Source: a virus. Taken from it: 23,510 nucleotides of DNA. The position numbers and the translations under genes are program-made. A model generated the notes under the pieces. The model was given only the letters and a program-made list of their open reading frames with translations. It was not told where the DNA came from and did not search any database. Below are positions 12,202-23,510 of the stretch, in pieces (the first letter of the stretch is position 1; each line of letters starts with the position of its first letter). Location: the IMG/VR virus record IMGVR_UViG_3300025466_000180, positions 1 to 23,510 of that record; one strand, 5' to 3'.

Positions 12202-12909
12202 ATGGGAACACGGTCACTTACATTTGTATACGAAAAATATGGCCAAGTACAGAAGCCAGTAGTTAATATGTACCGCCAGTTTGATGGATATCCTGAAGGT
12301 CATGGTGCTGAGTTGGCAGAATTCCTCAGTTCAGGTACAATGGTTAATGGACTGGGTGTTGGTAGTAAAACATTACAGTTTAACGGCATGGGTTGTTTGG
12401 CAGCGCAGATGGTTGCTCACTTTAAACAAACACCGGGGGGTTTCTATATTCATCCAGTTGATGTTACCGATTGTGGCCAAGATTATGAATACCACATCTA
12501 TGATAGTGGTAAAGGTTTATATGTTGAAGTATATAATTGTGGATGTAATTTCTTTGGTGTGAGTGGTGATACTCACGAGAATATCTTCAAAGGCAATTTA
12601 AAAGAGTTTACTAAGTTTTGTGGAAAAGAATCGGAAGAAATTAATTTTCAATCCATTGACGAAGTAAAATCTTTGTTACAAGAAAACATTGCAACGGTAA
12701 CATTTATCAAAAATGATGGTTCGGAAAGAACCATGAAATGTACCTTGAACAAAGAATTAATTCCACAAAAGGTGCATGAAACAAAACGAATCAATGAGCA
12801 AGTTCGTGCAGTATCTAATGAGGTATTACCTGTGTACGATTTGATTGCTGAAGGTTGGAGAAGTTTTCGTTTAGATTCAATCATTAAAGTAGAAAAGGAA
12901 ACAGTATAA
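12202..12909 (+). CDS. MGTRS-type protein fused to a WYL_2/Sm-like domain, paralogue 2
   Basis: 235 residues. Residues 1-142 are a close paralogue of the protein at 1750-2211 (same MGTRSLTFVYEKYGQ start, YRQFDGYPEGHG, NGMGCLAA, FYIHPVDVTDCGQDYEY and EVYNCGCN). Residues 150-232 add VTFIKNDGSERTMKCTLN and VYDLIAEGWRSFRLDSI, the signature of the phage WYL_2 (Sm-like SH3 beta-barrel) family, elsewhere a stand-alone protein as far as I recall. The fusion suggests that the two domains act in one process. That process is unknown, though SH3/Sm folds often bind nucleic acid or protein. It is the first gene of the P4 unit. Confidence 0.85.
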   Translation: MGTRSLTFVYEKYGQVQKPVVNMYRQFDGYPEGHGAELAEFLSSGTMVNGLGVGSKTLQFNGMGCLAAQMVAHFKQTPGGFYIHPVDVTDCGQDYEYHIYDSGKGLYVEVYNCGCNFFGVSGDTHENIFKGNLKEFTKFCGKESEEINFQSIDEVKSLLQENIATVTFIKNDGSERTMKCTLNKELIPQKVHETKRINEQVRAVSNEVLPVYDLIAEGWRSFRLDSIIKVEKETV

Positions 12910-18061: not shown

Positions 18062-19375
18062 ATGTTTATACTTGTAATTGACCCATCAGGTCTCACATTA
18101 GATTGGTGTTTACGCTGTGTTGCAGCTGGACATACAGTAAAACTTTATACCAAAGGTTCAAGAGCTTCCCATATTGGCCAAGGATTGATCGATAAGGTTA
18201 CTAATTGGAAACAATACGTCAAAGTTGCTGATCTAATCTTTAGTTCTGATAATCTTGAGTTTATGGATGATATCCAAGATTTAATCAAACAAGGTTATCC
18301 AGTATTCGGACCAGGTAAAAATGCCGCTAAATTAGAATTAGACCGTATGTACGGTCAAGATGTTATCAAGGCATTTGGTGGTCCAATCATTCCTTCACAC
18401 GAATTTAAAAATTATGATCAAGCTATTAAGTTCGTTAAAGAGAACCCAAAGCGTTATGTTTGTAAACCTTGCGGTGAAGAAGAAGATAAATCTCTTTCAT
18501 ACGTTGCTAAAGATGAAGCCGACTTAATTGGTTTCTTGACAAAACGTAAAGAAAAAGGTAAGGGTTCTCCTTACTTCATTCTCCAAGAATTCAAAGCCGG
18601 TACCGAAATTGCTTGTACTGGTATATTCGGTCCTGCCGGTTGGATGCCTTTCTGGTGTGAAGGTTGGGAATTCAAGAAACAGATGAATGGTGACCTTGGT
18701 GTGAATACAGGTGAAATGGGTACTGTTACTCGTTACACTAAAGAATCCAAGATTGCTGACATTCTTATGAAACCAATGGAAAAAGAATTACACAAGATTG
18801 GTTACGTTGGTATGCTCGACATGAACTGTATCATTGATGAAAAAGATGGTACGCCTTGGCCTATGGAGTGGACCGCACGTCCAGGTTATCCAATGTGGAA
18901 TATTATGCAACCACTTATGATAAATGAAGATCCTGCCGAATGGATGCTTGACTGTATCAAAGGCAAGAATACTCTTGAAGTTGAATTTGAAACCTGTGTT
19001 GGTGTTGTTATGGCTAATTCAGACTTCCCATTCAACAAAAAAGATGAGGAAGAATACCTAGACTTCCCAGTACTCACGGACGATATTGACCATAAGCATC
19101 TACATCCTTGTGAAATGAAACTCTCCAAGACCGTTAAAATGATCGATGGTGAACTCTGTGAGAATGTACCAGAACTTGGTACTGCAGGTACATACATTGT
19201 AGTATTGACTGGTTGTGGAAATACAATCTCCGAAGCTAAAGATGAAGCATATGCCAATGTTAAGAAAGTTAAACTTGGTAATGATCCACAATATCGTACT
19301 GATATCGGTGAAAAATGTGAAAAAGGTTTGGCAAAGTTGAAGAAATTTGGATATTGTAAGGATTGGAAGTATTGA
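18062..19375 (+). CDS. PurD-like ATP-grasp protein
   Basis: 437 residues with AGGA (18053-18056) 5 bp upstream. It has the domain order of GAR synthetase (PurD): an N-terminal alpha/beta domain (1-80), an ATP-grasp fold (about 82-280) with GPGKNAAKLE near 83-92, LQEFKAGTE, the diagnostic GDLGVNTGEMGTVTR (210-224) and YVGMLDMN, and a GARS-C-like end with GTAGTYIVVLTGCGNTISEA. Two deviations matter. The canonical GGREHA loop that contacts phosphoribosylamine is replaced by DPSGLTLD, and the metal-site EFNxRFGDPE is changed to EWTARPGYP. It should still bind ATP and join a carboxylate to an amine or similar, but true purine synthesis is doubtful. A phage-specific ligase is as likely. Confidence 0.82.
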   Translation: MFILVIDPSGLTLDWCLRCVAAGHTVKLYTKGSRASHIGQGLIDKVTNWKQYVKVADLIFSSDNLEFMDDIQDLIKQGYPVFGPGKNAAKLELDRMYGQDVIKAFGGPIIPSHEFKNYDQAIKFVKENPKRYVCKPCGEEEDKSLSYVAKDEADLIGFLTKRKEKGKGSPYFILQEFKAGTEIACTGIFGPAGWMPFWCEGWEFKKQMNGDLGVNTGEMGTVTRYTKESKIADILMKPMEKELHKIGYVGMLDMNCIIDEKDGTPWPMEWTARPGYPMWNIMQPLMINEDPAEWMLDCIKGKNTLEVEFETCVGVVMANSDFPFNKKDEEEYLDFPVLTDDIDHKHLHPCEMKLSKTVKMIDGELCENVPELGTAGTYIVVLTGCGNTISEAKDEAYANVKKVKLGNDPQYRTDIGEKCEKGLAKLKKFGYCKDWKY

Positions 19376-21050: not shown

Positions 21051-22493
21051 ATGATTTTTGAGATACATAGTGAGCGCAGTGCTGAAGATAAAAAAATCTT
21101 CTATTATGATAATGAAACCAACTTCTTAAAAAGTGAAGATGGAATTGTATATGAATTTCCCGAAGGTTCGATTCATGACCATCAATTGACCGAATATAAA
21201 TCATTCGATAAGGATCGTCCTCTAAAGAAATCTAGGGAAGTTCAGCTTCTCAAAATTCAAATGGGTTTAAGTTGTAATTACTCTTGTGATTATTGTTCAC
21301 AGAAATTTGTTGAACGAGCACCAGAAACTTCTAAGAAAGATATTGATGCTTTCATGGAGATGTTGAATAATCTAGAGTTCTCTGCTGAAAAAGGATTAAA
21401 GATTGAGTTTTGGGGTGGCGAACCTTTAGTGTATTGGAAGACTATGAAGCCTTTGGCTGAAGCCATTGTAGATAAGTTCCAACATTGGGATCGTCTACCA
21501 CAATTCTCTATGATTACCAATGGTTCTATACTCACCGATGAAATTTGTGATTGGTTAATGAAGTATAATTTTTCCGTATCAATCTCACATGATGGTCCTG
21601 GACAATCAGTCCGTGGTCCTGATCCATTTGATGATCCAGTAAAGAAAAAAACTATTCTTGGTTTCTATCGTATGATGAGTCGGTTGAAAAAAGGTATTTC
21701 TTTTAACCCAATGATGAATAGTAAAAACAAATCTCGTAAAGAAATCTTTGAATGGTTTGTAAATTTAACGGGTGATGTTAATGTTAAGCTGGGTGAGGGT
21801 GGTATTGTAGACGCTTATGATGAAGATGGTATCACAAACTCTTTACAATCATTACAGGAACATTTTGAATATCGCAGAACAGCTTTTTCTGATTTATATG
21901 CTACTAATGGTAAAATGGGATTTGTTGGAATTCAAGGTAAAATTGATGGGTTCTTACAATCAGTATTATCACATTCAAACTCAAAGTATCTAGGTCAGAA
22001 GTGTGGAATGGATGATGAGCATGTATTAGCGGTAGACCTTAGAGGTAATGTAATGACTTGTCAAAATGTCAGCTCATTAGAAACATCCAAGAATGGTGAA
22101 TCTCATTTGGGTGGTAACCTTAATGATTTTGATGCCGTTGAAATCAAAACTTCTACACATTGGAGCAATCGTAAAGAATGTGGTTCTTGTCCAGTGTTGC
22201 ATCTATGTAAAGGTGCTTGTATGTTTTTAGACAAGAAGTTTTGGGATATTTCTTGTGCCAATTCATATTCGGATAACATTTCCTTGTTCGCTATTGCATT
22301 AGAGAAGATGACTGGTTACATTCCAACCCTCATTAAAAATGATGCTTTACCGACTGAGCGCCAAGATATTTGGGGTACAATTTATGAACATAAAGAGAAA
22401 ACTGTAAGAAAGATCATTCCAATCAAAGTGATTAGTGAACTCTCTGGCAATATTGAAGGTGTTGAGGTCTACGGACAATCGTGGGTAAAATGA
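21051..22493 (+). CDS. Radical SAM/SPASM peptide-maturase-like enzyme
   Basis: 480 residues. Residues 1-65 are an N-terminal region of unknown fold that could recognise a substrate. The radical SAM core starts with C75-x3-C79-x2-C82 (CNYSCDYC), the ligands of the catalytic 4Fe-4S cluster, followed by the SAM-contacting GGEP at 122-125 and further barrel motifs (MITNGSILTD, SISHDGP). The C-terminal domain has a full SPASM signature, C318-x13-G-x4-C337, then C377-x2-C380-x5-C386-x3-C390, then C402, predicted to hold two auxiliary clusters. SPASM enzymes install thioether, C-C or related cross-links in ribosomal peptides or act as anaerobic sulfatase maturases. The last 75 residues are family-specific. 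The neighbour 37 bp downstream encodes an extremely Cys-rich protein, the natural candidate substrate. No RiPP transporter or protease is present, which fits a protein that stays with the phage. Confidence 0.9.
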   Translation: MIFEIHSERSAEDKKIFYYDNETNFLKSEDGIVYEFPEGSIHDHQLTEYKSFDKDRPLKKSREVQLLKIQMGLSCNYSCDYCSQKFVERAPETSKKDIDAFMEMLNNLEFSAEKGLKIEFWGGEPLVYWKTMKPLAEAIVDKFQHWDRLPQFSMITNGSILTDEICDWLMKYNFSVSISHDGPGQSVRGPDPFDDPVKKKTILGFYRMMSRLKKGISFNPMMNSKNKSRKEIFEWFVNLTGDVNVKLGEGGIVDAYDEDGITNSLQSLQEHFEYRRTAFSDLYATNGKMGFVGIQGKIDGFLQSVLSHSNSKYLGQKCGMDDEHVLAVDLRGNVMTCQNVSSLETSKNGESHLGGNLNDFDAVEIKTSTHWSNRKECGSCPVLHLCKGACMFLDKKFWDISCANSYSDNISLFAIALEKMTGYIPTLIKNDALPTERQDIWGTIYEHKEKTVRKIIPIKVISELSGNIEGVEVYGQSWVK

Positions 22494-22494
22494 A

Positions 22495-22504
22495 CATAAA
22501 TACT
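22495..22504 (+). promoter_or_regulatory. T4-late-promoter-like motif
   Basis: CATAAATACT lies 27 bp before ATG 22531. It differs at one base from the T4 late -10 element TATAAATA with its usual following CT. The downstream gene looks structural, so late expression would fit. No late sigma gene is visible in the window, so this rests on one motif. Confidence 0.35.
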
Positions 22505-22530
22505 GATAACAATAAATTAACGAGTAAACT

Positions 22531-23510
22531 ATGACCATACAATCATCAGGACCAATTGGCATTTCCGATGTAACCGCTGAACTGGGTTTAGGAACAACCT
22601 ATTCGGCTTCATTGAGTTTTCTTAATGGATTTATGAAAAATCCAGCAACACCACCCAACTTAGCTGAATTTTATGGCCAGGCTTATTTTCAAAGTAATGC
22701 ACTAGGTAATTGTAACAACGGAAACTGTGGAACCTCAGGAGGAGGTAACGGAAATTGTACTACCAATTGTAACTGTGGAAATATTCAATGTAACAATTGT
22801 ACTATTGCTGGTCCATCCGATTGTTCAAACTGTGCAAACTGTAATGCTGTCAATTGTGCAAACTGTGATGCTAAAGCGTACTTACAATCAAATTGTAATT
22901 GTGCTTGTTCTTATAACTGTACTACTAATGGTGTAACCTACAACTGTACAACGAACCTAACTTCATATAACTGTAATTGTGCTTGTAACTGTTCTAAGAT
23001 TGTTTGTGCTAAATTGTTTGACCTTGGCATGATGAGTCACAATGTATGGGCAGCAGATCAGGCATATGGTCAGATGTTACGCCAAACAGATAAGAATATC
23101 TATCGTGGCTATATTCGTTGGGCCCGTATTGTTACATCGTGGATGGAAGGCAAGGGTCCTGATTTTATGGTTTGGATTAAAAATAAAGAAGAACGTCAGA
23201 AAGCACAACAGAAAGCCATGATTGATATGGCTAATAAGATTGGTCAACCATGGTCACAACACATGGCGTATCTAATGGGTGCTGTTGAAAAAGATAATAC
23301 AATGGGTCGTATTTTAATGAACATTGGTCGTCCTATTTGTAGGATTGTTGATATGTTACCTAGAGTTGCTAAGACACAACGCAAACATGGTTTGATTACT
23401 GTGGGTACTATTTGGTTCTTTTTGTTCTTTAGTTATTATACAGCATCAATATTGGTTAAATCATTTAATTTCATTAATAAAATTAAAAAAACAAAAATTC
23501 TGAAGGATGC
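22531..23510 (+). CDS. Asn-Cys-repeat phage structural/membrane protein, 3' end cut off
   Basis: The frame is open from ATG 22531 to the window end, at least 326 residues. Residues 1-52 (IQSSGPIGISDVTAELGLG, then PPNLAEFYGQAYF) are the N-terminal module found in many phage tail-associated proteins. Residues 61-159 form a low-complexity domain with 22 cysteines, 17 of them preceded by Asn (CSNCANCNAVNC and similar), plus Thr, Ser and Gly. Residues 160-285 are a helical domain with YRGYIRWARIVTSWMEGKGP and PWSQHMAYLMG, which looks familiar from phage hypotheticals but has no name that I know. Residues 289-309 (TVGTIWFFLFFSYYTASILV) are a likely membrane helix, followed by a basic tail. Candidate substrate of the radical SAM/SPASM enzyme just upstream. 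Metal or cluster binding by the cysteines is the main alternative. Confidence 0.85.
   Translation, partial: MTIQSSGPIGISDVTAELGLGTTYSASLSFLNGFMKNPATPPNLAEFYGQAYFQSNALGNCNNGNCGTSGGGNGNCTTNCNCGNIQCNNCTIAGPSDCSNCANCNAVNCANCDAKAYLQSNCNCACSYNCTTNGVTYNCTTNLTSYNCNCACNCSKIVCAKLFDLGMMSHNVWAADQAYGQMLRQTDKNIYRGYIRWARIVTSWMEGKGPDFMVWIKNKEERQKAQQKAMIDMANKIGQPWSQHMAYLMGAVEKDNTMGRILMNIGRPICRIVDMLPRVAKTQRKHGLITVGTIWFFLFFSYYTASILVKSFNFINKIKKTKILKD

Follow-up and report, generated by a model that had tools for sequence, protein, structure and literature searches.

The radical SAM/SPASM maturase QhpD cross-links Cys to Asp or Glu within a protein subunit and not within a free peptide. The thioether maturase PapB tolerates Cys and Asp lying 0-6 residues apart (PMC9413430). 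A six-membered ring formed by Cys and N-methylornithine is found in enteropeptin, and the acceptor residues of ruminococcin C1 include Ala and Asn (PMC12395415). This class of chemistry is already known; its use on the tips of phage fibers appears to be new. We found no description of a phage radical SAM gene paired with a Cys-tract fiber gene in the open-licence papers searched, and radical SAM is absent from the main text of the paper on the lake phage Lumi, which is related to Achromobacter phage JWF. Here we describe such a pair, starting from a 23,510-base virus record, which in its entirety is called the window below.

A Radical SAM/SPASM Enzyme of No Characterized Maturase Family

The gene at 21051..22493 (plus strand) encodes a 480-aa protein matching PHROG_1802 (E 5e-62), for which we propose a role as a tail-tip maturase. 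It contains CNYSCDYC at residues 75-82 (21273..21296, plus strand), which is the CxxxCxxC motif of the radical SAM [4Fe-4S] cluster, and the SAM-binding motif GGEP at residues 122-125 (21414..21425, plus strand). The SPASM region (22002..22256, plus strand) holds the seven Cys expected to bind auxiliary Fe-S clusters (C318, C337, C377, C380, C386, C390, and C402), spaced as C318-x13-G332-x4-C337, then C377-x2-C380-x5-C386-x3-C390, then C402, so that both the CxxxCxxC plus GGEP pair and the general SPASM pattern C-x(9-15)-G-x4-C ... C-x2-C-x5-C-x3-C ... C are present. The sequence-only reading that preceded this work had described the motif set as complete, and our 35-row alignment (A4) bears this out, the three CxxxCxxC Cys, GGEP, and all seven SPASM Cys being invariant. 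Pfam Radical_SAM (PF04055) matches the enzyme with 37.1 bits (cut-off 29.5), and TIGR04085 is above its cut-off in the relatives from loci L158, L161, and L201.

The AlphaFold2 model of the enzyme has a pLDDT of 92.7, and the closest solved folds found by Foldseek are anSMEcpe, CteB, TigE, ChlB, and SuiB. The model shows only strands in residues 1-60, and a leader-binding fold of the RRE type is not seen there. The PapB thioether maturase family (NF047865) tops the NCBIfam ranking, with 87.5 bits (cut-off 340). Assignment to PapB, SCIFF, QhpD, anSME, or the other NCBIfam maturases was ruled out, every score being far under its cut-off, and the chemistry characterized in those families is therefore not transferable to the window enzyme.

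The Asn-Cys-Rich Partner Protein

The downstream gap of 37 bp (22494-22530) is followed by an open reading frame that starts with ATG at 22531 and runs past the window end (22531..23510, plus strand). It encodes an Asn-Cys-rich (NC) protein, the proposed substrate, of which 326 aa lie in the window. A 100% identical copy of the same phage in other IMG/VR contig sequence (L037/L085) gives a full protein of 327 aa, so the window frame misses just one residue and the stop. Its 23 Cys include 22 within the 99 residues 61-159, and the Cys-rich region (22708..23007, plus strand) holds 17 Asn-Cys pairs. The spacing and both counts agree to the base with the sequence-only reading. The N-terminal part, MTIQSSGPIGISDV...FYG (22531..22686, plus strand), is common to the window-type homologues (alignment A3). 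Near the end of the Cys-rich region lies a C-X-C-X-C-X-C tract, NCNCACNC (22969..22992, plus strand), which sequence comparison identifies as the element common to the wider family, and behind it stands a C-terminal helical domain (KIVCAKL...ADQAYG..., 22996..23510, plus strand), recognized from AlphaFold2, from locus L004, and from viral Foldseek matches.

A chance or low-complexity frame was ruled out. Frame and tract are kept in close to 90 distinct homologues, and the codons of the tract vary between AAT and AAC for Asn and between TGT and TGC for Cys while the encoded residues stay constant, which argues that selection acts on the protein.

For the NC protein, AlphaFold2 gave pLDDT values under 50 in residues 52-115 and 121-155 and no usable fold of the Cys region; across most of residues 161-280, the helical domain, pLDDT is 84-94. 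The last helix is predicted to be hydrophobic, and the window protein could for that reason be a membrane protein rather than a part of the virion tip. The same helical domain, without the Cys tract, ends a Synechococcus phage protein (L004) that adjoins fiber genes, and the viral Foldseek search with the NC protein matched other phage proteins through the C-terminal domain only. Shorter relatives of about 130 aa without the helical domain, as well as relatives bearing an S74 domain, have the window-type N-terminus and Cys region. The phage tail-type N-terminus proposed by the sequence-only reading needs refining: the window protein itself has no meaningful PHROG or Pfam match, and its identification with tail fibers comes from homologues, for example that in L059, and from the wider family.

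Linkage of the Tract Gene and the Radical SAM Gene

Viral contigs were searched independently with the window enzyme and with the NC protein, giving 80 loci each, and in these the two genes occur together in every contig whose ends allow it. In a search independent of either protein, a DNA pattern for NCNCxCNCxC was run against 2.9 million viral contigs and hit at least 120 stretches. Among the matches listed, the tract lies in a frame of at least 60 aa at 104 loci, and 76 of these 104 have a radical SAM relative, always on the strand of the tract frame (76/76) and nearly always downstream of it (73/76). When only listed tract frames followed by 4 kb or more of sequence are counted, the relative is present in 49 of 51, against none of the 16 chance matches (pattern loci among the matches listed that lie outside any frame of at least 60 aa; Fisher p 1e-13).

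The reverse search used radical SAM enzymes from two distant subfamilies as queries. A CxC-tract gene was found at 87 of the 90 distinct enzymes with at least 5 kb upstream. A C-x-C-x-C-x-C frame on the same strand accompanies 74 of the 90, against four for the opposite strand; the remaining 16 comprise 13 with a shorter tail or near variant (e.g., a C-terminal ...NCNCNC), one truncated where the contig stops, and two without a tract. These counts contain near relatives and hence are not independent events, a bias with which the enzyme tree described below deals in part. The sequence-only reading had named the two genes usually occurring apart as the outcome that would speak against it; instead they are linked in nearly all loci, and the neighborhood by which a RiPP system is recognized, a precursor gene beside its maturase, is found here at 49/51 loci among the listed matches and at 87/90 from the enzyme side. 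This linkage is both strong and general, and simple synteny of one phage clade as its cause was ruled out by the pattern search together with the enzyme tree.

The pair extends to named phages and to bacterial genomes. In the Achromobacter phages JWF and 2-1 the fiber gene lies two genes ahead of the radical SAM gene, and its tract ends in NCNCDCNCNCS (JWF) or NCNCDCNCS (2-1) with a Hint domain directly behind in both. In bacterial and metagenome-assembled genomes the tract was found at 51 of 63 radical SAM loci. Among the carriers are cultured Limnohabitans (for example strains Rim28 and II-B4), Thalassobacter, Nereida, Rhodoplanes, and Burkholderia paludis, whose loci we take to be prophages. 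In Polynucleobacter necessarius PPGSP2 (L500) the radical SAM gene is fragmented and a frame 2.2 kb upstream still ends in NCNCDRNCGC. No CxC tract was found near the relatives in the bacterial genomes of Variovorax, Ramlibacter, Sulfuricella, and Sulfuritalea. The Sulfuritalea and Sulfuricella genes (L480, L490) adjoin apparent ABC-exporter genes, as judged by eye from the sequence ends, and perhaps represent a bacterial branch with a different substrate. Campylobacter phages CP220, CPt10, CP21, and others encode distant radical SAM proteins that align with part of the query at about 27% identity.

Partner Proteins and Position of the Tract

The partner proteins range from about 90 to 700 aa and include collagen-repeat fibers, other tail-fiber-type proteins, fibers with an S74 chaperone, and Hint-domain fusions. 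Pfam matches among them are Collagen and Peptidase_S74 (29.1 bits, cut-off 22); one Hom_end_hint match is above its cut-off (34.2 vs. 32.1), the others being below it or assigned from sequence. A PHROG scan of ten partners gave many tail-fiber PHROGs and left two of the ten without a match. Most scanned partners thus carry a tail-fiber domain, whether Collagen, Peptidase_S74, or a tail-fiber PHROG. The window partner, with a tract followed by a confidently predicted helical domain, is among the less typical kinds.

What is constant in the family is C-X-C-X-C, with X mostly Asn, Ala, or Asp (403, 136, and 72 of 682 C-X-C). The focus of the sequence-only reading on the 99-residue Asn-Cys region therefore proved too narrow, since the shared element is this short tract, which is usually C-terminal: 118 of 173 non-redundant tract frames stop within 12 residues past it. 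In other frames of this set the tract is followed by a helical domain of the window kind (KIIC; 29 frames), a Hint-like domain (about 10), or an S74 domain (3). Thirteen of the 173 are unclassified, and part of them are probably chance frames.

On a tree of 104 radical SAM sequences no fewer than six changes are needed for the Hint label. All labels combined need 23, where shuffling gives a mean of 35; the labels were set by simple sequence patterns, and individual ones may be wrong. The six or more Hint changes suggest that the tract is retained while the domain behind it gets swapped. Hint and S74 domains are capable of self-cleavage, and if they cut themselves off the tract would become the C-terminus in those proteins too.

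Several loci vary this arrangement. Three (L339, L344, L366) have three small tandem proteins, each with a CxC tail, ahead of a single radical SAM gene. In three others (L160, L171, L210) the proteins have QTCQGCQKCQ repeats ahead of an NCNCDCNCNC tail, and the radical SAM gene nearby is a more distant one. Besides the main gene, L185, L186, L201, L271, and L473 have a second and shorter radical SAM gene (complete copies encode about 330-340 aa), which directly precedes the main gene in the loci examined.

Oxygenases and Other Neighbors

A gene of the 2OG/Fe(II) oxygenase families lies on the same strand within 5 kb at 122 of 184 distinct loci (about two thirds; tract/radical SAM loci only). 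At window-type loci these are PF13759 oxygenases together with a homologue of Asp/Asn beta-hydroxylase (PF05118, above the Pfam cut-off in representatives); examples downstream of the NC gene are at L426:10640-13191 and L085:7293-9228. Of 125 window-type loci, 107 have the PF05118 homologue no more than 3.5 kb downstream; it tracks the KIIC-domain architecture, not the tract itself. Other subfamilies have a divergent oxygenase family between the fiber and radical SAM genes, which scores 15.1 in Pfam (cut-off 27) and was related to the PF13759 set by profile comparison with a probability of 98.9. At many loci of the L158 type the interval between fiber and radical SAM genes (e.g., L316:4914-5708) contains a conserved family of about 265-280 aa, present in 107 loci; the representative searched had no Pfam match.

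Elsewhere in the window, 18062-19375 encodes a 437-aa protein with a Pfam GARS_A (ATP-grasp) match above cut-off and no PHROG match. The window frames 1750-2211 and 12202-12909 begin near-identically (MGTRSLTFVYEKYGQ...), pointing to a likely gene duplication.

Proposed Maturation of Fiber Tips and Alternative Explanations

These observations suggest that the phages concerned chemically cross-link the tips of their own host-binding fibers. We consider it rather probable that the pair carries out a phage-encoded, RiPP-like maturation of fiber tips, with Cys thioether cross-links as the probable product. The radical SAM/SPASM enzyme would act on a C-X-C-X-C tract that forms the C-terminus of a tail-fiber-type protein or lies close to it, and the enzyme's radical SAM and SPASM clusters would most likely join Cys sulfurs to carbons of neighboring residues, giving thioethers with a loss of 2 Da per link. 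The spacing tolerance of PapB, the enteropeptin ring, and the acceptors of ruminococcin C1 make thioethers within the tract chemically reasonable by analogy. In RiPP terms, the fiber would correspond to the leader and the tract to the core peptide; we write RiPP-like and not RiPP because the partners are proteins of about 90-700 aa, many with fiber domains. The tract is the natural C-terminus in most phages, and where S74 or Hint stands behind it, self-removal of that domain would leave it as the C-terminus. The window phage has the helical C-terminal domain in this place, for which removal and a role in anchoring the protein are both conceivable. The host-contacting fiber would then end in a cross-linked distal tip that is rigid or protected. 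The sequence-only reading had already put forward that the phage uses this enzyme on a structural protein of its own; the near-universal linkage, the unrelated phage backgrounds, and the recurrent tail-fiber-type partner now support this in part, while the tract as substrate, the chemistry, the exposure at the tip, and the function are what we infer.

Several other explanations were considered. Possible, though rather doubtful in our view, is a multi-enzyme maturation in which Asn or Asp residues of the tract are hydroxylated by 2OG/Fe(II) oxygenases or by enzymes resembling Asp/Asn beta-hydroxylase, a change that the radical SAM enzyme would add to or need; it would be an extension of thioether maturation, not its opposite. 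The oxygenase-family genes at 122/184 loci, PF05118 at 107/125 window-type loci, and the profile probability of 98.9 with PF13759 agree with it, but one third of the loci are without an oxygenase gene, PF05118 goes with the KIIC-domain architecture rather than with the tract, and phages often carry 2OG oxygenases for unrelated reasons. It seems unlikely that the tract is the enzyme's substrate for a change other than thioether formation, such as epimerization of X (alternating D/L), oxidation of Cys to formylglycine in the manner of anaerobic sulfatase maturases, or a carbon-carbon link. The several thioether formers among the top family matches (PapB, the QHNDH maturase, SCIFF) argue against this, even if the Cys-oxidizing anSMEcpe is the top Foldseek match, the sequence matches include the peptide epimerase YydG, and the strict i, i+2 alternation with X = Asn/Ala/Asp would fit an extended or D/L-alternating strand. 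For formylglycine in particular, the anSME score is 51.7 against a cut-off of 349 and the tract lacks the sulfatase-type C-x-P-x-R motif.

Two further explanations detach the enzyme from the tract. The tract may form a metal-binding (Fe, Zn, or Cu) or disulfide-bonded fiber tip while the enzyme acts elsewhere or indirectly, and C-X-C repeats are indeed good metal ligands, with a precedent in the metal sites of other phage fiber and spike tips, such as the HxH iron sites of T4 gp37. This leaves unexplained why the enzyme gene tracks the tract across many unrelated fiber architectures, and we hold it to be quite improbable. Still less credible, and in our judgment very improbable, is that the two genes merely travel together in one conserved structural module without acting on each other. 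The wide synteny of the window-type loci, PF05118 and PF13759 genes included, could be read in this way, but the pairing persists where the C-terminal architecture differs, with either gene order (upstream or downstream), and in distant radical SAM subfamilies, and the enzyme is absent from the chance pattern matches.

If the maturation of fiber tips by thioether formation is true, viruses would finish the host-meeting part of their particle by radical chemistry, a new layer of phage biology. It would involve a very short tract carried on many unrelated fiber proteins, in environmental phages as well as in prophage-like loci of cultured bacteria, and a maturase family working on the ends of large proteins, which would be of interest for peptide stapling. 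The wider picture, that phages of many lineages cross-link their receptor-contacting fiber tips with their own radical SAM/SPASM enzymes and often have 2OG oxygenases hydroxylate the Asn or Asp of the tract, is one that we advance tentatively. The tract provides a simple search key for further members.

Comparison with Known Systems

The nearest NCBIfam by score is that of PapB/PapA (NF047865), where a radical SAM/SPASM enzyme likewise has a Cys-rich partner encoded nearby. The phage enzyme differs in its score (87.5 bits vs. 340) and in its partner, which is of the fiber type, not a small precursor, and has no CX3D array; PapB also has an N-terminal RRE where the phage enzyme is modeled as strands only. 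With the QHNDH maturase (TIGR03906, QhpD) it shares a real protein as substrate, here a proposed one, whereas the substrate of QhpD is a subunit of a periplasmic enzyme and the phage enzyme scores 71.7 bits against 453. SCIFF/CteB and the sactipeptide maturases have a similar SPASM fold (CteB 5wgg/5why, E about 1e-12) and a short Cys-rich core, but act on small precursor peptides, and the phage enzyme is far under their family cut-offs. The top Foldseek match is anSMEcpe (TM about 0.53-0.68), and the JWF enzyme bears that annotation in one record; against the anaerobic sulfatase maturases (TIGR03942), however, the phage enzyme scores 51.7 bits (cut-off 349.45), and its partner lacks the sulfatase motif. 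On the fiber side, phage fibers with S74 intramolecular chaperones or Hint domains have the same C-terminal domains that stand directly behind the tract in some members of the family, whereas we know of no described fiber of this kind with a Cys tract or a radical SAM partner. A RiPP has its modified core at the C-terminal end of the precursor; the phage tract, as the putative core, is C-terminal in 118 of the 173 non-redundant frames.
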